Part shown: positions 8,994-15,463 of the stretch, piece after piece
Position numbering within the stretch: position 1 is the stretch's first letter
Layout of the letters: each line of letters starts with the position of its first letter
Assembly (NCBI GenBank): GCA_029862185.1
Contig: JAOTXX010000025.1
Location: 1-50,744, forward strand
Origin: Myxococcales bacterium
GTDB lineage: Bacteria > Myxococcota_A > Polyangia > Polyangiales > Houyiibacteriaceae
DNA: 50,744 bases
Reading direction: 5' to 3'
The notes under the pieces: generated by a model
What the model was told of the DNA's origin: nothing
The model's input: the letters and a program-made list of their open reading frames with translations, nothing else
Databases searched by the model: none
Position numbers and translations under genes: made by a program

Positions 8994-10820
8994 ATGACGG
9001 ACGAAAGAGATCTGATTCGCGATGATATCGAGGCTTATCTCGCGAAGTATCGAAAGAAAGAGCTGCTCCGCTTCGTGTCGGTCGGCTCGGTCGACGACGG
9101 CAAATCCACGCTCATCGGACGGATCCTCTACGACACCGGAATGGTGTTCGAAGACCAGATGGCCGCCGTCCGTGCCGCATCCCAGACCGACGAGCCGGAC
9201 CTGGCGCTACTGACCGACGGGCTCAAGGCCGAGCGCGAGCAAGGCATCACCATCGACGTGGCGTACCGCTACTTTGCGACCGACAAACGGAAGTTCATCA
9301 TCGCGGACACGCCAGGGCACATCCAGTACACGCGCAACATGGTCACAGGCGCTTCGACTGCCGACGTGGCGTTGATTTTGATCGACGCACGACACGGCGT
9401 CCTTCAGCAGTCGCGCCGGCACGCATACATCGCTTCGCTGCTAGGCATTCCGCATCTTGCGGTTTGCGTCAACAAGATGGACCTCAAGGACTACTCGCAG
9501 AAAGTCTACGAAGAGATCAGCGCCGACTTCATGGAGTTTGGCAAGACTCTTCGCTTCAAAGACGTTCAGTTCTTCCCGGTTAGCGCTCTGGTCGGTGACA
9601 ACGTGGTGAGTGACAGCGAGAACACGCCCTGGTACGACGGGCCGAACGTTCTCGGCTATCTCGAAACGGTTCCGGTATTCGAAGATCGGAACTTCACCGA
9701 TTTCCGCTATCCGGTGCAGTACGTCATCCGGCCTGACCTCGACTACCGAGGGTTCGCTGCCGAGGTCGCTGCGGGCGTCATTGCCAAGGGCGACGACATC
9801 GTGGCCCTTCCCTCGGGCAAGGCGTCGAAAGTCAAAGCCATCGACACCTACGACGGCGAGCTCGACGAGGCATTCGCGGGCCAATCGGTGACCATTCGAC
9901 TCGAAGACGAGATCGACATCAGCCGGGGCGACATGATCGTGAAGCCCGACAGCCTGCCGCGGGTCACGCGCCGCTTCGATGCACATTTGGTCTGGATGCA
10001 CGAGAAGCCGCTCGACACCGAAAAAGCGTACCTGGTCAAGCACAGCACACAGACGGTCCGCGCTCAGATCGACAAGATCTATTGCGAGATTGACATGGAC
10101 AGCCTCCAAGAGAAGCCAACCGACGGCATCGCGCTGAACGACATCGCGAAAGTACGGCTGAGCTGCCACCGGGCGCTGTACGTCGACGACTACCAGCGCA
10201 ATCGTGAAACGGGCGCTTTCATCGTCATCGATTCGCTGACCAACAACACCGTGGCGGCGGGCATGATCTCGCTCGAAGGTGCCGATCAGAACATGGGCGA
10301 AGTCATGAAGGAGCTGCACGCCGAATCGGCGATGGAGCCCAAGACCTTCGTCAGCGACAACGAGCGCATGGAGCGCTTCGGCCAGCGAGGCGCGACGGTT
10401 TGGCTCCAGGGGCTTCCTGGTTCGGGCCGCTGGACACTAGCGTACGCGCTCGAGCGAAGGCTTTTTGATGATGGTCGTACGGCGACGGTCGTCAACCCCG
10501 TCGGTGAGGATCTTCGATCCATGATATCCGCCGCGAAGGCCGTGACCGATGCGGGCCTGATCAACATTTGCGCCTTCCCAAGCCCTACGCGTACGGACCG
10601 AGACAAGCTCAAGGCACGCATCGGTGAAGGCCGCGTCATCCAAGTCTACGTGAACACCGATGAAGCCCTTTGCCGCGAGCGCCGTCCAGACGCCGACTTC
10701 TCCCAGTTCGAGGCTCCGGAGGACCCGGACATCACGGTCGCGCTCAATGAAATGAGAATCGACAAGGCCGTCGAGATCATCATGGAAGCGCTGAGAGAGC
10801 GCGGCCAGTTCGAAGACTAG
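8994..10820 (+). CDS. cysN: Sulfate adenylyltransferase subunit 1 fused to a degenerate APS-kinase domain
   Basis: A 608-residue CysNC-type fusion. The GTPase part is intact: GSVDDGKST (31-39), DTPGH (105-109), NKMD (160-163), followed by EF-Tu-like beta domains. From about 462 a CysC-like domain follows, but its key motifs are lost. The P-loop reads GLPGSGRWT (473-481) where APS kinases have GLSGSGKST, so the Lys is Arg and the next Ser is Trp. The DGD-x2-R motif and the following DRxxNIRR segment are missing, while AFPSPTRTDRD and the end of the fold remain. The kinase half is therefore probably inactive and may have a structural or regulatory role. No separate cysC, cysH or sulfite reductase gene lies in this window. 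Confidence 0.92.
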   Translation: MTDERDLIRDDIEAYLAKYRKKELLRFVSVGSVDDGKSTLIGRILYDTGMVFEDQMAAVRAASQTDEPDLALLTDGLKAEREQGITIDVAYRYFATDKRKFIIADTPGHIQYTRNMVTGASTADVALILIDARHGVLQQSRRHAYIASLLGIPHLAVCVNKMDLKDYSQKVYEEISADFMEFGKTLRFKDVQFFPVSALVGDNVVSDSENTPWYDGPNVLGYLETVPVFEDRNFTDFRYPVQYVIRPDLDYRGFAAEVAAGVIAKGDDIVALPSGKASKVKAIDTYDGELDEAFAGQSVTIRLEDEIDISRGDMIVKPDSLPRVTRRFDAHLVWMHEKPLDTEKAYLVKHSTQTVRAQIDKIYCEIDMDSLQEKPTDGIALNDIAKVRLSCHRALYVDDYQRNRETGAFIVIDSLTNNTVAAGMISLEGADQNMGEVMKELHAESAMEPKTFVSDNERMERFGQRGATVWLQGLPGSGRWTLAYALERRLFDDGRTATVVNPVGEDLRSMISAAKAVTDAGLINICAFPSPTRTDRDKLKARIGEGRVIQVYVNTDEALCRERRPDADFSQFEAPEDPDITVALNEMRIDKAVEIIMEALRERGQFED

Positions 10821-10852: not shown

Positions 10853-11422
10853 CTATATCTCGTCCAAGGGCATCTCGCATTCCTCGCGGAGGCGGCAGTC
10901 GGCACATTCGGCGCCACGCCAGATGCGGTCGTAGCGTCCTTGGACTTGGTCGATGGTTTGTTCATCGGACGTAAGGATGCCCATCTCGAAGTTGCGGCGG
11001 CCGTCGCCTTTTGCGCCGAGACCCGCGCCGGTCCAGTTGGCGCTCCCGAGATAAACCAGCCGTGCGTCGACCACGACCGTCTTGAGGTGGACTCGGGGAC
11101 AGACGCGCATTTCGATTCCGCCTGCGACGAGGTCGGGCTGAGCGTCGAAGCTCCGGCGGAACGCCCGCGATGGGACGGACGCGTGTAGGATTCGTAGCTC
11201 GACTCCACGTCGTGCAAGCTCCGCGAACACCTCGAGAACCGATCGGTAGTTGCCGCGGCGCCCCCGGCGCCGACCCGGAACGACCCGAGGATCCTCGACC
11301 ATGACGTCCTTGAGATTGGCGGTCGCTACCCAGACACTCTGCTCGGCCGCCAACACGGCCTGCATGACCTGCTCGTAGTGGTCGCGTTCGGAGAGCAGAT
11401 GCAGGGGGATCGAGCGGGGCAT
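10853..11422 (-). CDS. Small phospholipase D-like protein with one HKD motif and C-terminal Cys motif
   Basis: A 189-residue protein of the PLD superfamily with a single HxKxxxxD motif (HLKTVVVDARLVYLGSANWT), like bacterial Nuc-type endonucleases that dimerise to build one active site. There is no signal peptide, so it may act in the cytoplasm on nucleic acid or phospholipid. The C-terminus carries CADCRLREEC, a CxxCx5C arrangement not usual in the family, which could bind metal. The ATG at 11422 (MPRSIPLHLLSERDHY) is chosen because upstream sequence in this frame is low-complexity repeat. It is convergent with cysN. Function is unknown beyond the family. Confidence 0.75.
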   Translation of the reverse strand: MPRSIPLHLLSERDHYEQVMQAVLAAEQSVWVATANLKDVMVEDPRVVPGRRRGRRGNYRSVLEVFAELARRGVELRILHASVPSRAFRRSFDAQPDLVAGGIEMRVCPRVHLKTVVVDARLVYLGSANWTGAGLGAKGDGRRNFEMGILTSDEQTIDQVQGRYDRIWRGAECADCRLREECEMPLDEI

Positions 11423-11476
11423 GGGGCGGAGGATACGAGAAGGAGTGCGGGCGTCCGAGAAACCCACGGTCACGGC

Positions 11477-11536
11477 CACTGACACTGACACTGGCACTGG
11501 CGCTGGCGCTGGCGCTGGCGCTGGCGCTGGCGCTGA
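11477..11536. repeat. Hexanucleotide tandem repeat (10 units)
   Basis: Ten consecutive 6-base units of pattern C-R-C-T-G-R: four CACTG(A/G), five identical CGCTGG, one CGCTGA. It lies 55-114 bases upstream of the start of the phospholipase D-like gene. The graded change from CACTGA to CGCTGG is what slipped-strand expansion with drift would leave. It is a non-coding repeat on the chosen gene start; if the true start were further upstream it would encode Ala/Pro/Val repeats. Confidence 0.85.
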
Positions 11537-11554
11537 CGCGGATGTTGGGCAGCC

Positions 11555-11714
11555 GGGGGGTGGGTGGGTGGCGTCGTTTGGCTTAATTACACCGCCCGCC
11601 CACCCCCACCCGTAATCCTCCCTGCCGCGGCATTCGCTTCGCTTCGCCTTGGCGGCGCTCCGCGCCGGGCTTCGCCCTTCGGGCTCGCGCTGCCGCCTGC
11701 CCTTTTTGGGAGGG
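11555..11714. repeat. Dispersed G-rich repeat, copy 1
   Basis: Copy 1 of an element found again at 43204-43390 in the same orientation. It has a G-rich tract on the plus strand (11555-11573), a short AT-rich centre (TTAATTAC), then a C-rich tract (11592-11612) that can pair with the first. A conserved segment CGTAATCCTCCCTGCCGCG follows, then palindromic GC-rich sequence. The minus strand of 11595-11611 has four G-runs separated by one base, a canonical G-quadruplex pattern. With the hexamer array and the inverted-repeat element it fills the 508-base gene-free stretch 11423-11930. No gene is supported in this gap. Confidence 0.75.
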
Positions 11715-11738
11715 TTGGTGATCCTGTCTCCGTAGGGA

Positions 11739-11927
11739 GGGGCGCGGAAAAAACCCGTCATGGGGTGGAGTCGACGTAACGAGTGACAATCTGCACGACA
11801 GCAACCACCGCAGATTGGCGCGAGTTCCGAGGCTCGGCTTGCGTGGTCAAGGCCCGCAAGTGCATCCGACCACATCTGCAAGCCGAGCCGTTCGATGGAA
11901 CCCCATGACGGGTTTTTTCCGCGCCCC
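11739..11927. mobile_element. 189-base element with perfect 27-base terminal inverted repeats (MITE-like)
   Basis: The 27 bases at 11739-11765 are the exact reverse complement of 11901-11927. Inside is a second inverted repeat: 12 bases at 11831-11842 pair with 11878-11889. The interior has no convincing gene. Short size, perfect terminal repeats and non-coding interior are the features of a miniature inverted-repeat transposable element. No target-site duplication could be seen at the ends, so mobility is unproven. Each arm also contains CCC-ATGAC-GGG followed by six T, so it could act as a weak two-way terminator. The right end stops 3 bases short of the transporter stop codon. Confidence 0.6.
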
Positions 11928-11930
11928 GGT

Positions 11931-13961
11931 TCAATCCATTTCCCTGAACTGCTCTTCTTCGGGATTCTCGTCTGCGTCTAAGAAGGCGAGGTCTCTTTGT
12001 GTATACATCCGTCCGAGGAAATGGCGGATCGGAACGAGCAGCGCGATGAAGAGGGGAAACAAGACGCCGAACGATGACTCCTTCACGAACCAGAGCACGG
12101 CCAAGCAAGTGAGCTGGACCAACGTGAAGCTGTGAAGCACGGTCCGAGAGACGCGGCGAATGTAGTGTGTGGGCGGATACAGAGTCGGGTCTGTGACCCA
12201 GAGCTTGAGGCGGTCGACGAACTGATTGCCTTGGAGCGAAGCGATGCCCATGAACAGAAACAAGCCGAACACGACCGACATCGGAATTGCACGAAGCAGG
12301 CCGAGAACGAGCAACGACGCGCCGATCAACAGGTGAACGACGAGTGGGGTGAGGCGGTTCTCCATGACCGAAATGATGTGTTCCCCTCGCGCGTGATGGC
12401 GGACGGTTGCCAGGCTGCGAGTGTGATTCAGCGATCGAACCGTCGCGGCAACGACCCACGGCAGGCCGATGGTCGCGCAAATCGCGACGAGCACGGCAAT
12501 CACCGCCATGTCGAGGTTATAGCCCGCGCCCTTCTTGAGCCGGTGCTGTGGGCTATTGACCAGGCGGACCGTGATGTTCTGATCCAAGAAAAGGAGCACA
12601 GCTGCCAAGCCTGCGATCGGTATCGCTGCCAGCGGAAACCAGCCCGGCACGTCCATCGGGTTGACCAGCCAAGGTCGCCCGCTCGTCGTGGTGAACTCGT
12701 GCGGAACTGCCAGGTGCGCAAGCTCGATGGGGTGCATCGTCCAAGCTGCCGCCGTCATCGTGAAGATCGCGATCGTCGGTCCGAAGTCCGTGAGGAACTC
12801 GCGCACGGTTTTGGTGAGGAGCGGTTTTTGCCGGACCCTGGAGAGCTGCTGGGCGATCATGTACGTCCCGAGCGCGAGGATGAGCGCCAAAAGCTCCCCG
12901 TTCGTTGCCACTTCGGGACCGAAGATGTCGCCAAAAATGTCGCGGAAGGCTTCGGTAATGAAGATTAGCGCGATCAGCGCCCCGAAAATCTCGTCGGTGA
13001 AGCGTGTGAAGTGTTGGATGTAGCGACTCGTGTTGGTGACGGCCAACACCAACATGATCACCGCGGTCCAGATGCCGATCCAGAACAAGCCAGGAAGGAA
13101 GGAAACGCCGAGCTGCTTACAAAGAAGGTAGAGGAGAGCAAGGAAGATGGTGACCGGGCCGGTGGTGCCGAGAAGCGTCAGCGGCTGCCCAGAGAAAAGT
13201 GCGTAGACTACGCCTCCGATTGCCGTCGCGAGAAGGGCCTCGACAGCGCCGATTTCGCCGTCGGTCAGGAACGCCAGAAGCCCACCGAAGGCAATCGACG
13301 GCGCCAAACAGGCAAAGAACAAGAACAGAATCGTCGCCAGACCCTTGACGTTGAATCCGTCGACGAAGTCGCTCGCATAAAAAGGGAGCTTTCGGCGAAT
13401 GTCCGCAACGAGCCCCGCCGCGAAGCCGGTGACTGGCGGCGGTATGCTTGGATAGCTTGGAACGAGCGACGGCCTTCGTTGGTCGGGCGGCGCCTCGACG
13501 TACTCCAGATAGAGCTGGTAGGTCGCGAGCACTTGCATCGGATCGTTGGCACCGATGATCGACGCGCTGAAGCGCTCGTCGTGCAACATCCATCCGAAAG
13601 GCTCCAGGTCTTCGTTGGGCGGGGTGGAAGCGCCGTACGGCGCAACGATGAGCCAGACGTAATGAACCTTTTCGTGGTCGCTCGCGCGGACACCTTCGGG
13701 AATGCGCATGAGCAAGCAGCTGTAGACGTCACCGTTCTGCGCCTCGTAACGAACGCGAAGCACGCCCACCCCACCGCCGAGGTCATGGATCTCCCCCTCG
13801 CCCCTCTCGTCGAGCGTAGCTTGAATCGCCCCGCGTTGGCGCTCGCTCAGCTTGCCCAGGCGGACGAGCTCATCACCCGCCTGCTCGACCAGGCCCTGCA
13901 GATCGCTAGCAGTCAGGTCGAGTAAGATCTCACTGTCGTGAAGACGCTTCTGCAAGGCCAC
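11931..13961 (-). CDS. SLC4-family bicarbonate/anion transporter with EIIA-like cytoplasmic domain
   Basis: A 676-residue bacterial homologue of the animal SLC4 (Band 3 / Na-bicarbonate) family. Residues 200-656 are the membrane domain with many family segments: ALFSGQPLTLLGTTGPV (254-270), FTRFTDEIFGALIALIFI (318-335), FLDQNITVRLVNS (458-470), RLKKGAGYNLD (474-484), GLPWVVAATVRS (499-510), RVSRTVLHSFTLVQL (603-617). Asp460 sits where NBCe1/NDCBE have Asp and AE1 has Glu, the ion-site residue, so sodium-coupled bicarbonate transport is a reasonable inference. Residues 1-155 resemble the EIIA/Band-3 cytoplasmic fold, but the region matching the EIIA phospho-His loop reads GGGVGVLRV, with no His. 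The C-tail has LDADE (661-665), like the AE1 LDADD motif. The start is GTG. The terminal-repeat element abuts the 3' end. Confidence 0.88.
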   Translation of the reverse strand: MALQKRLHDSEILLDLTASDLQGLVEQAGDELVRLGKLSERQRGAIQATLDERGEGEIHDLGGGVGVLRVRYEAQNGDVYSCLLMRIPEGVRASDHEKVHYVWLIVAPYGASTPPNEDLEPFGWMLHDERFSASIIGANDPMQVLATYQLYLEYVEAPPDQRRPSLVPSYPSIPPPVTGFAAGLVADIRRKLPFYASDFVDGFNVKGLATILFLFFACLAPSIAFGGLLAFLTDGEIGAVEALLATAIGGVVYALFSGQPLTLLGTTGPVTIFLALLYLLCKQLGVSFLPGLFWIGIWTAVIMLVLAVTNTSRYIQHFTRFTDEIFGALIALIFITEAFRDIFGDIFGPEVATNGELLALILALGTYMIAQQLSRVRQKPLLTKTVREFLTDFGPTIAIFTMTAAAWTMHPIELAHLAVPHEFTTTSGRPWLVNPMDVPGWFPLAAIPIAGLAAVLLFLDQNITVRLVNSPQHRLKKGAGYNLDMAVIAVLVAICATIGLPWVVAATVRSLNHTRSLATVRHHARGEHIISVMENRLTPLVVHLLIGASLLVLGLLRAIPMSVVFGLFLFMGIASLQGNQFVDRLKLWVTDPTLYPPTHYIRRVSRTVLHSFTLVQLTCLAVLWFVKESSFGVLFPLFIALLVPIRHFLGRMYTQRDLAFLDADENPEEEQFREMD

Positions 13962-14044: not shown

Positions 14045-15382
14045 CTAGGCGCCAATGCAGCGGCGGACGACGTCCATCAAGGTTTGCGTCCCCCAGGCCA
14101 GGCCATCGACGGGGATTCTTTCGTTGTGCCCATGGAACATGTCGGCGAAGCGGAGCGTAGGCGGAAGCTTCACCGGCGCGAAGCCATACCACTTGGCCCC
14201 AATCGAGGTGAACGCCTTCGCATCGGTGAACCCCTGCAGAATGAACGGCACCATCGGCGCGTCGGGCGCGCGCTCCCCCATGACCTCGTAAATCAACGAG
14301 TACAAGGACGACTCCTTTGGCTCGGTCACCACGGGTGGCAGCGAATGCATCACCTCCAGCTCGATGTCTTGACCCAAAACGTCAGCCAGCTCGCGCAGAA
14401 AGCCCTCCTGGCTCTGGCCCGGCAAAATCCGGCCATCGATTTCGGCCTCGGCAAAGCCCGGGATGACGTTGGTCTTGTTCCCGGCGCGGAGCACCGTCGG
14501 CGATGCCGTGTTGCCAAGCAGTGCGCGAAATGCGCGCCGTACTCCGGGATCGGGCAGTACGTTGAGCATCGCAGGACCAAATGTCGGGTTGGCCAGCATC
14601 TTGATCAGCGGCCGCAAGGGAGCAGGCAGGTGCGATGCGATCGCGCCAATGAACCCCTCGACCGACTCCGACGCGTGGCGCGGCAAGCCCTGGCTACCCA
14701 AGCGTGCAATCGCCTCACTCAGTTGAACGACCGCGGAGTCTTCACGCGGCATCGAACCGTGACCCGGTTCCCCGGTCGCTCGCGCGCGAACCCAACACAC
14801 GCCCTTCTCCGCAACTTGCACCGTGAAAAAGCTCTTGCCGGCAACTTGGATGTTGAAGCCACCGCCCTCCCCGATTGCGAACTCACTCTGAACCAGGTCA
14901 CGGTGGTTCTCGCAAAGCCACAGCGAACCGTGACGGCAACCCGCCTCCTCGTCGGCTACCCCGGCGAAGATGAGATCTCGCTTGGGTTTCACCCCTTCGC
15001 GCGCAAGCCGCGTGATGATCGCAACCGACATCGCAGCCATGTTCTTCATGTCGATCGCCCCTCGACCCCAGAGGCAGCCATCGTGAACCTCACCGCAAAA
15101 AGGTGGATGGGCCCAGGACGAAGGCTCAGCCTCGACGACGTCGAGGTGGGCGGTGAGCAGCAGCGGCGACAGCTCGCCCGAGCCGCGTAGGCGGGCGACG
15201 ACATTTCCCCGCCCGGGCGCGCTCTGCATCACGAGGGGGTCTAAACCGGAGCTGCTCAGCTCCGCGGCGAGCAGCTCCGCGGCAGGCAACTCGTTGCCCG
15301 GAGGGTTGGTCGTGTCGATCCGAATCAGTTGCTGGCAAAGGCCGAACGCGTGCTCGGAGAGCTCCGGATCATCTTTGGTCAT
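14045..15382 (-). CDS. M20-family metallopeptidase (carboxypeptidase/deacylase type)
   Basis: A 445-residue zinc peptidase of the M20/M25/M40 family, which includes carboxypeptidase S, ArgE/DapE-like deacylases and Gly-X carboxypeptidases. It opens with LIRIDTTNPPGNE, has the metal motif LLLTAHLDVVEAEPSSW, the bridging Asp in WGRGAIDMKNMAAM, the catalytic Glu pair in GVADEEAGCRHGS, and the dimerisation-domain His in GEPGHGSMP. There is no signal peptide. The ATG at 15382 (MTKDDPELSE) has GAAGGG 6-10 bases upstream; an in-frame ATG at 15442 would add 20 residues and has a poorer ribosome site. It is divergent from the globin gene. Substrate is not defined. Confidence 0.88.
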   Translation of the reverse strand: MTKDDPELSEHAFGLCQQLIRIDTTNPPGNELPAAELLAAELSSSGLDPLVMQSAPGRGNVVARLRGSGELSPLLLTAHLDVVEAEPSSWAHPPFCGEVHDGCLWGRGAIDMKNMAAMSVAIITRLAREGVKPKRDLIFAGVADEEAGCRHGSLWLCENHRDLVQSEFAIGEGGGFNIQVAGKSFFTVQVAEKGVCWVRARATGEPGHGSMPREDSAVVQLSEAIARLGSQGLPRHASESVEGFIGAIASHLPAPLRPLIKMLANPTFGPAMLNVLPDPGVRRAFRALLGNTASPTVLRAGNKTNVIPGFAEAEIDGRILPGQSQEGFLRELADVLGQDIELEVMHSLPPVVTEPKESSLYSLIYEVMGERAPDAPMVPFILQGFTDAKAFTSIGAKWYGFAPVKLPPTLRFADMFHGHNERIPVDGLAWGTQTLMDVVRRCIGA

Positions 15383-15463
15383 GACTTGCCCTTCGTGGTA
15401 GGTCGGCAGCCACGCTCGCGCAACTTGATCGACGGACGACATTGGCTCAGGGTCATCGATTAG

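Follow-up and report, generated by a model that had tools for sequence, protein, structure and literature searches.

The closest described systems are the mammalian SLC4 transporters (AE1/Band 3, AE2, NBCe1, NDCBE, NBCn1 and SLC4A11), of which Band 3 carries bicarbonate in red cells. Structures have shown that the cytoplasmic fold of SLC4 proteins resembles EIIA-Ntr (PMC4664831; PMC5608694), and the Na+/carbonate site of NDCBE comprises Thr538, Gly539, Asp800, Thr804, Thr847 and Lys970 (PMC8478935). According to a 2026 review, what chiefly separates Na-independent from Na-dependent mammalian members is the TM10 Arg together with the TM8 Glu/Asp (PMC13263692). An uncharacterised bacterial SLC4-like protein is already known from Nitrococcus mobilis (PMC8738779); it resembles the protein studied here in being a bacterial member of the family, and enters this comparison through its citation. 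A review of 2015 stated that bacterial SLC4s do not have the N-terminal domain and that isolated homologues of it cannot be identified in any genome (PMC4664831). The bacterial SLC4 proteins described below, which do carry a Band 3-type domain, contradict this statement. In the literature searched, from which most subscription journals were absent so that a prior mention is possible, we found no report of a bacterial EIIA-SLC4 fusion; domain databases may include such an architecture without describing it as such.

The gene under study lies in a stretch of DNA of 50,744 nucleotides, which we call the window, at positions 11931-13961 on the reverse strand. It encodes a protein of 676 aa with a GTG start, as identified from the ORF, Pfam, PDB matches and a structural model, and in the relatives L034 and L035 the start codon is ATG at the same position. 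The first-pass annotation had called the product a bacterial SLC4 transporter, and this was borne out: PF00955 (HCO3- transporter) is matched at 544.7 bits (cut-off 27), and all the motifs quoted at that time (FTRFTDEIFGALIALIFI, FLDQNITVRLVNS, KKGAGYNLD, VAATVRS and LDADE) were found. The NCBIfam model for anion exchange protein (TIGR00834) stays below its cut-off (476.8 vs 599.45). The best PDB relatives by phmmer are NDCBE, NBCe1, SLC4A10 and NBCn1, with E-values from 1e-105 to 5e-107. In the full-length AlphaFold model (pLDDT 82.6), the 7+7 transmembrane domain matched by PF00955 (residues 180-655; 11997-13424, reverse strand) finds AE2 first in the fold search (8jni; Z 49.6, 1.8 A over 483 residues), with further matches to Band 3, Bor1, NBCn1, NDCBE and NBCe1. 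SLC26Dg ranks lower (Z 32), so that the best matches do not come from SLC26, UraA or another fold family.

The membrane domain shares 34-41% identity with the sampled mammalian AE and NCBT proteins (41% to NBCe1/NDCBE; 35% to AE1). Plant and yeast Bor1 have the SLC4 fold as well, but they are without the N-terminal domain and reach 26-31% identity. SulP/BicA transporters (SLC26) show the same 7+7 fold, but they belong to another family, have 16-17% identity to the model and carry a STAS instead of an EIIA domain. Across its genus the window gene is under purifying selection, with dN/dS of 0.05-0.13 overall (N-terminal domain 0.07-0.13, membrane domain 0.05-0.09).

Residues 1-160 of the protein (13482-13961, reverse strand) form an alpha/beta domain that had not been mentioned in the first-pass annotation. 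We assigned it to the EIIA-Ntr / Band 3 cytoplasmic type on the basis of the AlphaFold model, its fold matches and the Pfam scores of its relatives. In the model (pLDDT 86.9) the fold is about equally similar to PTS EIIA-Ntr (PtsN; Z 11-12.3) and to the animal SLC4 cytoplasmic domains (Z 12.4 for SLC4A11, 11.4 for NDCBE and about 11 for Band 3 and AE2, with AE3 also matched). The fits to the Band 3-type cytoplasmic domains range from Z 10.2 to 12.4 over 142-162 residues, mostly at 3.3-4.3 A. With about 160 residues, the window domain is without the extra sequence that the animal domains have at the EIIA histidine loop. Taken alone, it stays below both Pfam cut-offs (14.1 vs 27 for PTS_EIIA_2, PF00359; 11.7 vs 34.3 for Band_3_cyto, PF07565), and a sequence search with it reaches PtsN at E 0.46. 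The single-sequence search thus fell short, and the assignment of the window domain is based on its alignment to relatives, on their profile and on the model.

The relatives make the kinship detectable in sequence. The N-terminal domain of L019 scores above both cut-offs (PTS_EIIA_2 75.1 bits, Band_3_cyto 48.4 bits), and so does that of L050 (84.1 and 92.7 bits). Among 50 aligned bacterial SLC4 N-termini, PF00359 was found in 46 and PF07565 in 44 at E<=0.1. A phmmer search with the single L019 N-terminus matched both PtsN (1.5e-12) and NBCe1 (3.9e-5). A profile built from the bacterial SLC4 N-termini alone matched PtsN at 3.7e-26, NBCn1 at 3.8e-22, NBCe1 at 4.7e-21, AE2 at about 2e-20, Band 3 at 2e-15 and SLC4A11 at 1.3e-7. 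NBCn1 and NBCe1 match this profile in two pieces, separated by the extra sequence, about 70 residues long in NBCe1, that takes the place of the EIIA histidine loop region. A control profile from 27 stand-alone EIIAs, all PtsN-type and from the window's order, detected PtsN at 6e-33 and no animal SLC4 up to E=10, and the PtsN of the host genome gave no PF07565 match. On this evidence, we consider it highly probable that the protein combines an EIIA-derived N-terminal domain with an SLC4 carrier and that the domain is of common descent.

The fusion differs from PtsN in an important residue. Where EIIA has GVAVPH, the window protein has GVGVLRV, with Arg69 (13755-13757, reverse strand) at the position of the phosphorylatable histidine, and the catalytic histidine is lost in this way throughout the window's genus. 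Relatives keep the GxAVAVPH motif with the phospho-histidine; the histidine was present in 50 of the 67 related domains scored and in every one from Planctomycetota (38/38). EI and HPr were found in all seven genomes tested that encode a His-bearing domain, and were not found in one Mycolicibacter genome, whose SLC4 is without the N-terminal domain. The host genome itself has a complete PTS-Ntr, with HPr, EI and a separate PtsN together on one contig (L111, L112). The relay thus exists in the host, yet the window SLC4 domain cannot be phosphorylated at the Arg69 site because the histidine is gone. The His-bearing domains of the relatives, judged from their sequences, may be phosphorylated via EI/HPr. 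One of them, from Bythopirellula polymerisocia (L051), has a named strain record and not a MAG as its source, which makes a binning artefact less likely.

All six residues of the NDCBE Na+/carbonate site are kept in the window protein. On the reverse strand, TM3 Thr267-Gly268 (13158-13163) is equivalent to Thr538-Gly539 of the carbonate site, TM8 Asp460 (12582-12584) aligns with Asp800, TM8 Thr464 (12570-12572) with Thr804, TM10 Thr507 (12441-12443) with Thr847 and TM13 Lys627 (12081-12083) with Lys970, which is Lys851 in AE1. Asp460 also aligns with NBCe1 D754 and AE1 Glu681, so that the earlier designation of this aspartate as the ion-site residue was correct: it occupies the TM8 position of the substrate site and does not lie outside it. 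A further residue that had been overlooked is TM10 Arg509 (12435-12437, reverse strand), equivalent to AE1 Arg730 and to NDCBE Leu849. This position holds the substrate Arg in AE1-3, and Leu or Ile in Na-dependent members such as NDCBE and NBCe1. As read from the alignment, the substrate site is a hybrid, with NBC-type Asp460/Thr464/Thr507 and AE-type Arg509, because Asp460 and Arg509 occupy exactly the two positions that define the mammalian subgroups in the 2026 review.

The Asp-plus-Arg pair is absent from the mammalian SLC4 subgroups. Among 82 sequences, made up of the window protein and its bacterial relatives, 61 carry it; Asp is paired with His in nine others, and TM8 has Asn, Ser or Glu in a few. 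Such a site would uncouple the two residues to which the Na+ dependence of SLC4 proteins is attributed. Several variants deserve a record of their own. In L057, L067, L079, L094 and L053, Asn replaces the acidic residue of TM8 and TM10 reads VGAVVRS or VGAAVRS; the coupling of these proteins is probably different. A TM8 Ser with an altered TM13 lysine region is seen in L072, L085, L101 and L109, mostly from Planctomycetota, and the contig of L085 also carries another SLC4 copy, L077. The SLC4s of Actinomycetota (L063, L066, L068, L084, L093 and L110; mycobacteria, Nocardia and Segniliparus) have a TM10 His in place of Arg and are without the N-terminal domain.

What the protein transports, and with which ion, can be weighed from these residues. 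The first-pass annotation had matched it to the Na-coupled NBC members and not to AE1. This stands in part: Asp460, Thr464 and Thr507 have the TM8 Asp plus Thr and TM10 Thr of NCBT proteins, but Arg509 is of the AE type, the long EL3 is missing (17 residues vs 83-88 in NBC-type members) and the protein is placed outside the NCBT clade. Asp460 itself does not mark the Na-coupled type, and we rejected it as a Na+ signature because AtBor1 and yeast Bor1p have Asp at the same position. By the tests run, the window protein is thus an SLC4 member outside the Na-coupled subgroup. An NBC-type Na+-coupled bicarbonate or carbonate symporter, in which Asp460 would be the Na+ residue and the Arg would have little effect, is a tentative reading that we place below even chances; the NDCBE-like site and the higher membrane-domain identity to NBCe1/NDCBE than to AE1 speak for it, while Arg509, which the Na-dependent mammalian members lack, the short EL3, the position in the tree and the shared Bor1 Asp speak against it. 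Arg509 in particular argues against a strict Na+ dependence. Conversely, Arg509 and Lys627 correspond to AE1 R730 and K851, and the membrane part finds its best structural matches in AE2 and Band 3, as would suit a Na+-independent exchanger of Cl- and HCO3- (or another anion) that works through Arg509 and uses Asp460 as a proton site like AE1 Glu681. Such an exchanger is possible but rather unlikely, since nearly all bacterial members have Asp instead of Glu, and the change from Glu to Asp strongly lowers anion exchange in AE1/AE2 (PMC4664831). A transporter of borate or another anion, either Bor1-like or for sulfate, has in its favour the Bor1 Asp at the same place and cysD/cysN at a distance of 1.1 kb, but the TM10 motif of Bor1 (SNGVIPQSP) is fully unlike VVAATVRSL, the identity to AtBor1 is about 31% vs 41% to NBCe1, cysDN is on the other strand and relatives adjoin carbonic anhydrase, which makes this reading very unlikely. 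Overall, we regard inorganic carbon as the likely substrate, while Na+ coupling of the window protein, as far as its residues indicate, comes only slightly short of an even chance. The most likely function would be inorganic-carbon transport with an EIIA-derived regulatory domain.

The genomic context of the relatives supports inorganic carbon as the substrate of the family. Of about 49 loci examined, eight encode a beta-carbonic anhydrase close to SLC4 (these belong to Planctomycetota, Acidobacteriota, Verrucomicrobiota and one bacterium without classification) and six a SulP transporter; five carbonic anhydrase and five SulP genes were checked by Pfam, and the rest were assigned by BLAST clustering and, for carbonic anhydrase, by the active-site motif. 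Besides, SLC4, beta-carbonic anhydrase and SulP are clustered together at L051, L059, L097 and L100, which are possible inorganic-carbon uptake islands. Neither carbonic anhydrase nor SulP is found near the window SLC4 gene itself, and the beta-carbonic anhydrase of the host genome lies elsewhere.

To place the protein, we built an IQ-TREE phylogeny of the membrane domain from 50 sequences. The animal AE and NCBT proteins form one clade (100/96) and the bacteria another (90/91), with Bor1 as a long outgroup. The window protein falls in the bacterial clade, which is the sister group of the sampled animal AEs and NBCs taken together, and is nested neither in NCBT nor in the animals. In the tree of the N-terminal domain, which includes two animal sequences trimmed of their loop, the animal domains group with those of the bacterial SLC4s, apart from stand-alone EIIA (100/100). 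The direction of descent can only be inferred, because Bor1 is a long outgroup and both trees were built without SLC4A11 and most other eukaryotes. The simplest history would be that the fusion of EIIA and carrier is older than the split between bacterial and animal SLC4s, and that the cytoplasmic domain of Band 3 descends from a PTS regulator.

Two other histories were considered. The animal and bacterial domains could be independent fusions of EIIA-like domains to SLC4; the domain is missing from Bor1 and from several bacterial SLC4s (Actinomycetota, Verrucomicrobiota and Bacteroidota), and the general PF00359 model just reaches NBCe1 (27.5 bits vs a cut-off of 27). However, the stand-alone EIIA profile misses the animal domains whereas the profile of bacterial SLC4 N-termini finds them at 1e-22, and with the grouping in the domain tree this makes independent fusion unlikely. 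That bacteria recently acquired an SLC4 gene from an animal would agree with the patchy presence of SLC4 (22 of 97 genomes across the genus and order), but the bacterial clade is sister to the animal members instead of nested among them, the bacterial domains keep the EIIA histidine and are without the animal insert, and many phyla are involved; we regard such a transfer as extremely improbable. A common origin of the fusion is thus preferred, and the bacterial EIIA-type domain suggests where the regulatory domain of animal SLC4s came from. Its origin would be explained by bacterial SLC4s that have this domain, in many cases with the EIIA histidine still in place.

The family is wider than the few lineages named in the first-pass annotation, as homologues were found in Myxococcota, Planctomycetota, Actinomycetota, Acidobacteriota, Verrucomicrobiota and Krumholzibacteriota. 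In the sampled genomes, PF07565 was matched at its cut-off in 11 of 294 from the phylum of B. polymerisocia and in 3 of 284 from the window's phylum, counts that are lower bounds because the model misses the window's own domain. Most of these matches lie in frames of 680-800 residues, which is the length of the fusion.

The proposed mechanism thus has two fused parts, an N-terminal cytoplasmic domain that would derive from a PTS EIIA-Ntr protein and an SLC4 7+7 membrane domain. The latter would work as a dimeric elevator carrier for bicarbonate or carbonate, in which the TM3/TM10 helix ends would bind the anion together with Arg509 and Lys627, and Asp460/Thr464/Thr507 would bind a cation, most likely Na+. 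The N-terminal domain would act in the window's genus as a non-phosphorylated scaffold or regulator, as in animals; in Planctomycetota and the other His-bearing relatives, EI/HPr would phosphorylate the domain, which would gate transport. As a whole, we hold this two-part explanation with high confidence. Opinion is evenly balanced on the joint proposal that the domain of Planctomycetota and relatives still links bicarbonate transport to the EI/HPr phosphorelay via the histidine and that the bacterial carriers represent a third, Asp-plus-Arg, type of site. If so, the His-bearing proteins would offer a simple system for the gating of transport by phosphorylation.

The surroundings of the window gene are an ordinary chromosomal stretch in a 4.3-Mb genome, to which Myxococcota MAGs are the nearest relatives with a name. 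An M20 peptidase gene (14045-15442, reverse strand) lies 83 nt upstream on the same strand and is possibly co-transcribed with the SLC4 gene, without an evident functional link. It is also found upstream of SLC4 in three relatives of the genus, where synteny gave no informative link. A PLD-like protein (10853-11881, reverse strand) is encoded 49 nt downstream on the same strand; its homologue adjoins SLC4 in L036 only, and its presence here is probably incidental. Neither neighbour is informative on the function of SLC4. The PLD-like protein has a weak match to DISARM DrmC (38.6 bits vs a cut-off of 133), and its N-terminal part looks low-complexity or mis-started. The cysD/cysN genes are on the opposite strand, and we rejected sulfate transport as a reading of their proximity, as this gene order is common to the genus only. 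Their CysN (8994-10820, forward strand) is fused to an APS-kinase-like C-terminus with the P-loop GLPGSGRWT. In this loop an Arg takes the position of the Walker A lysine and the kinase profile is matched only in part; judged from the sequence, the kinase part is probably inactive.
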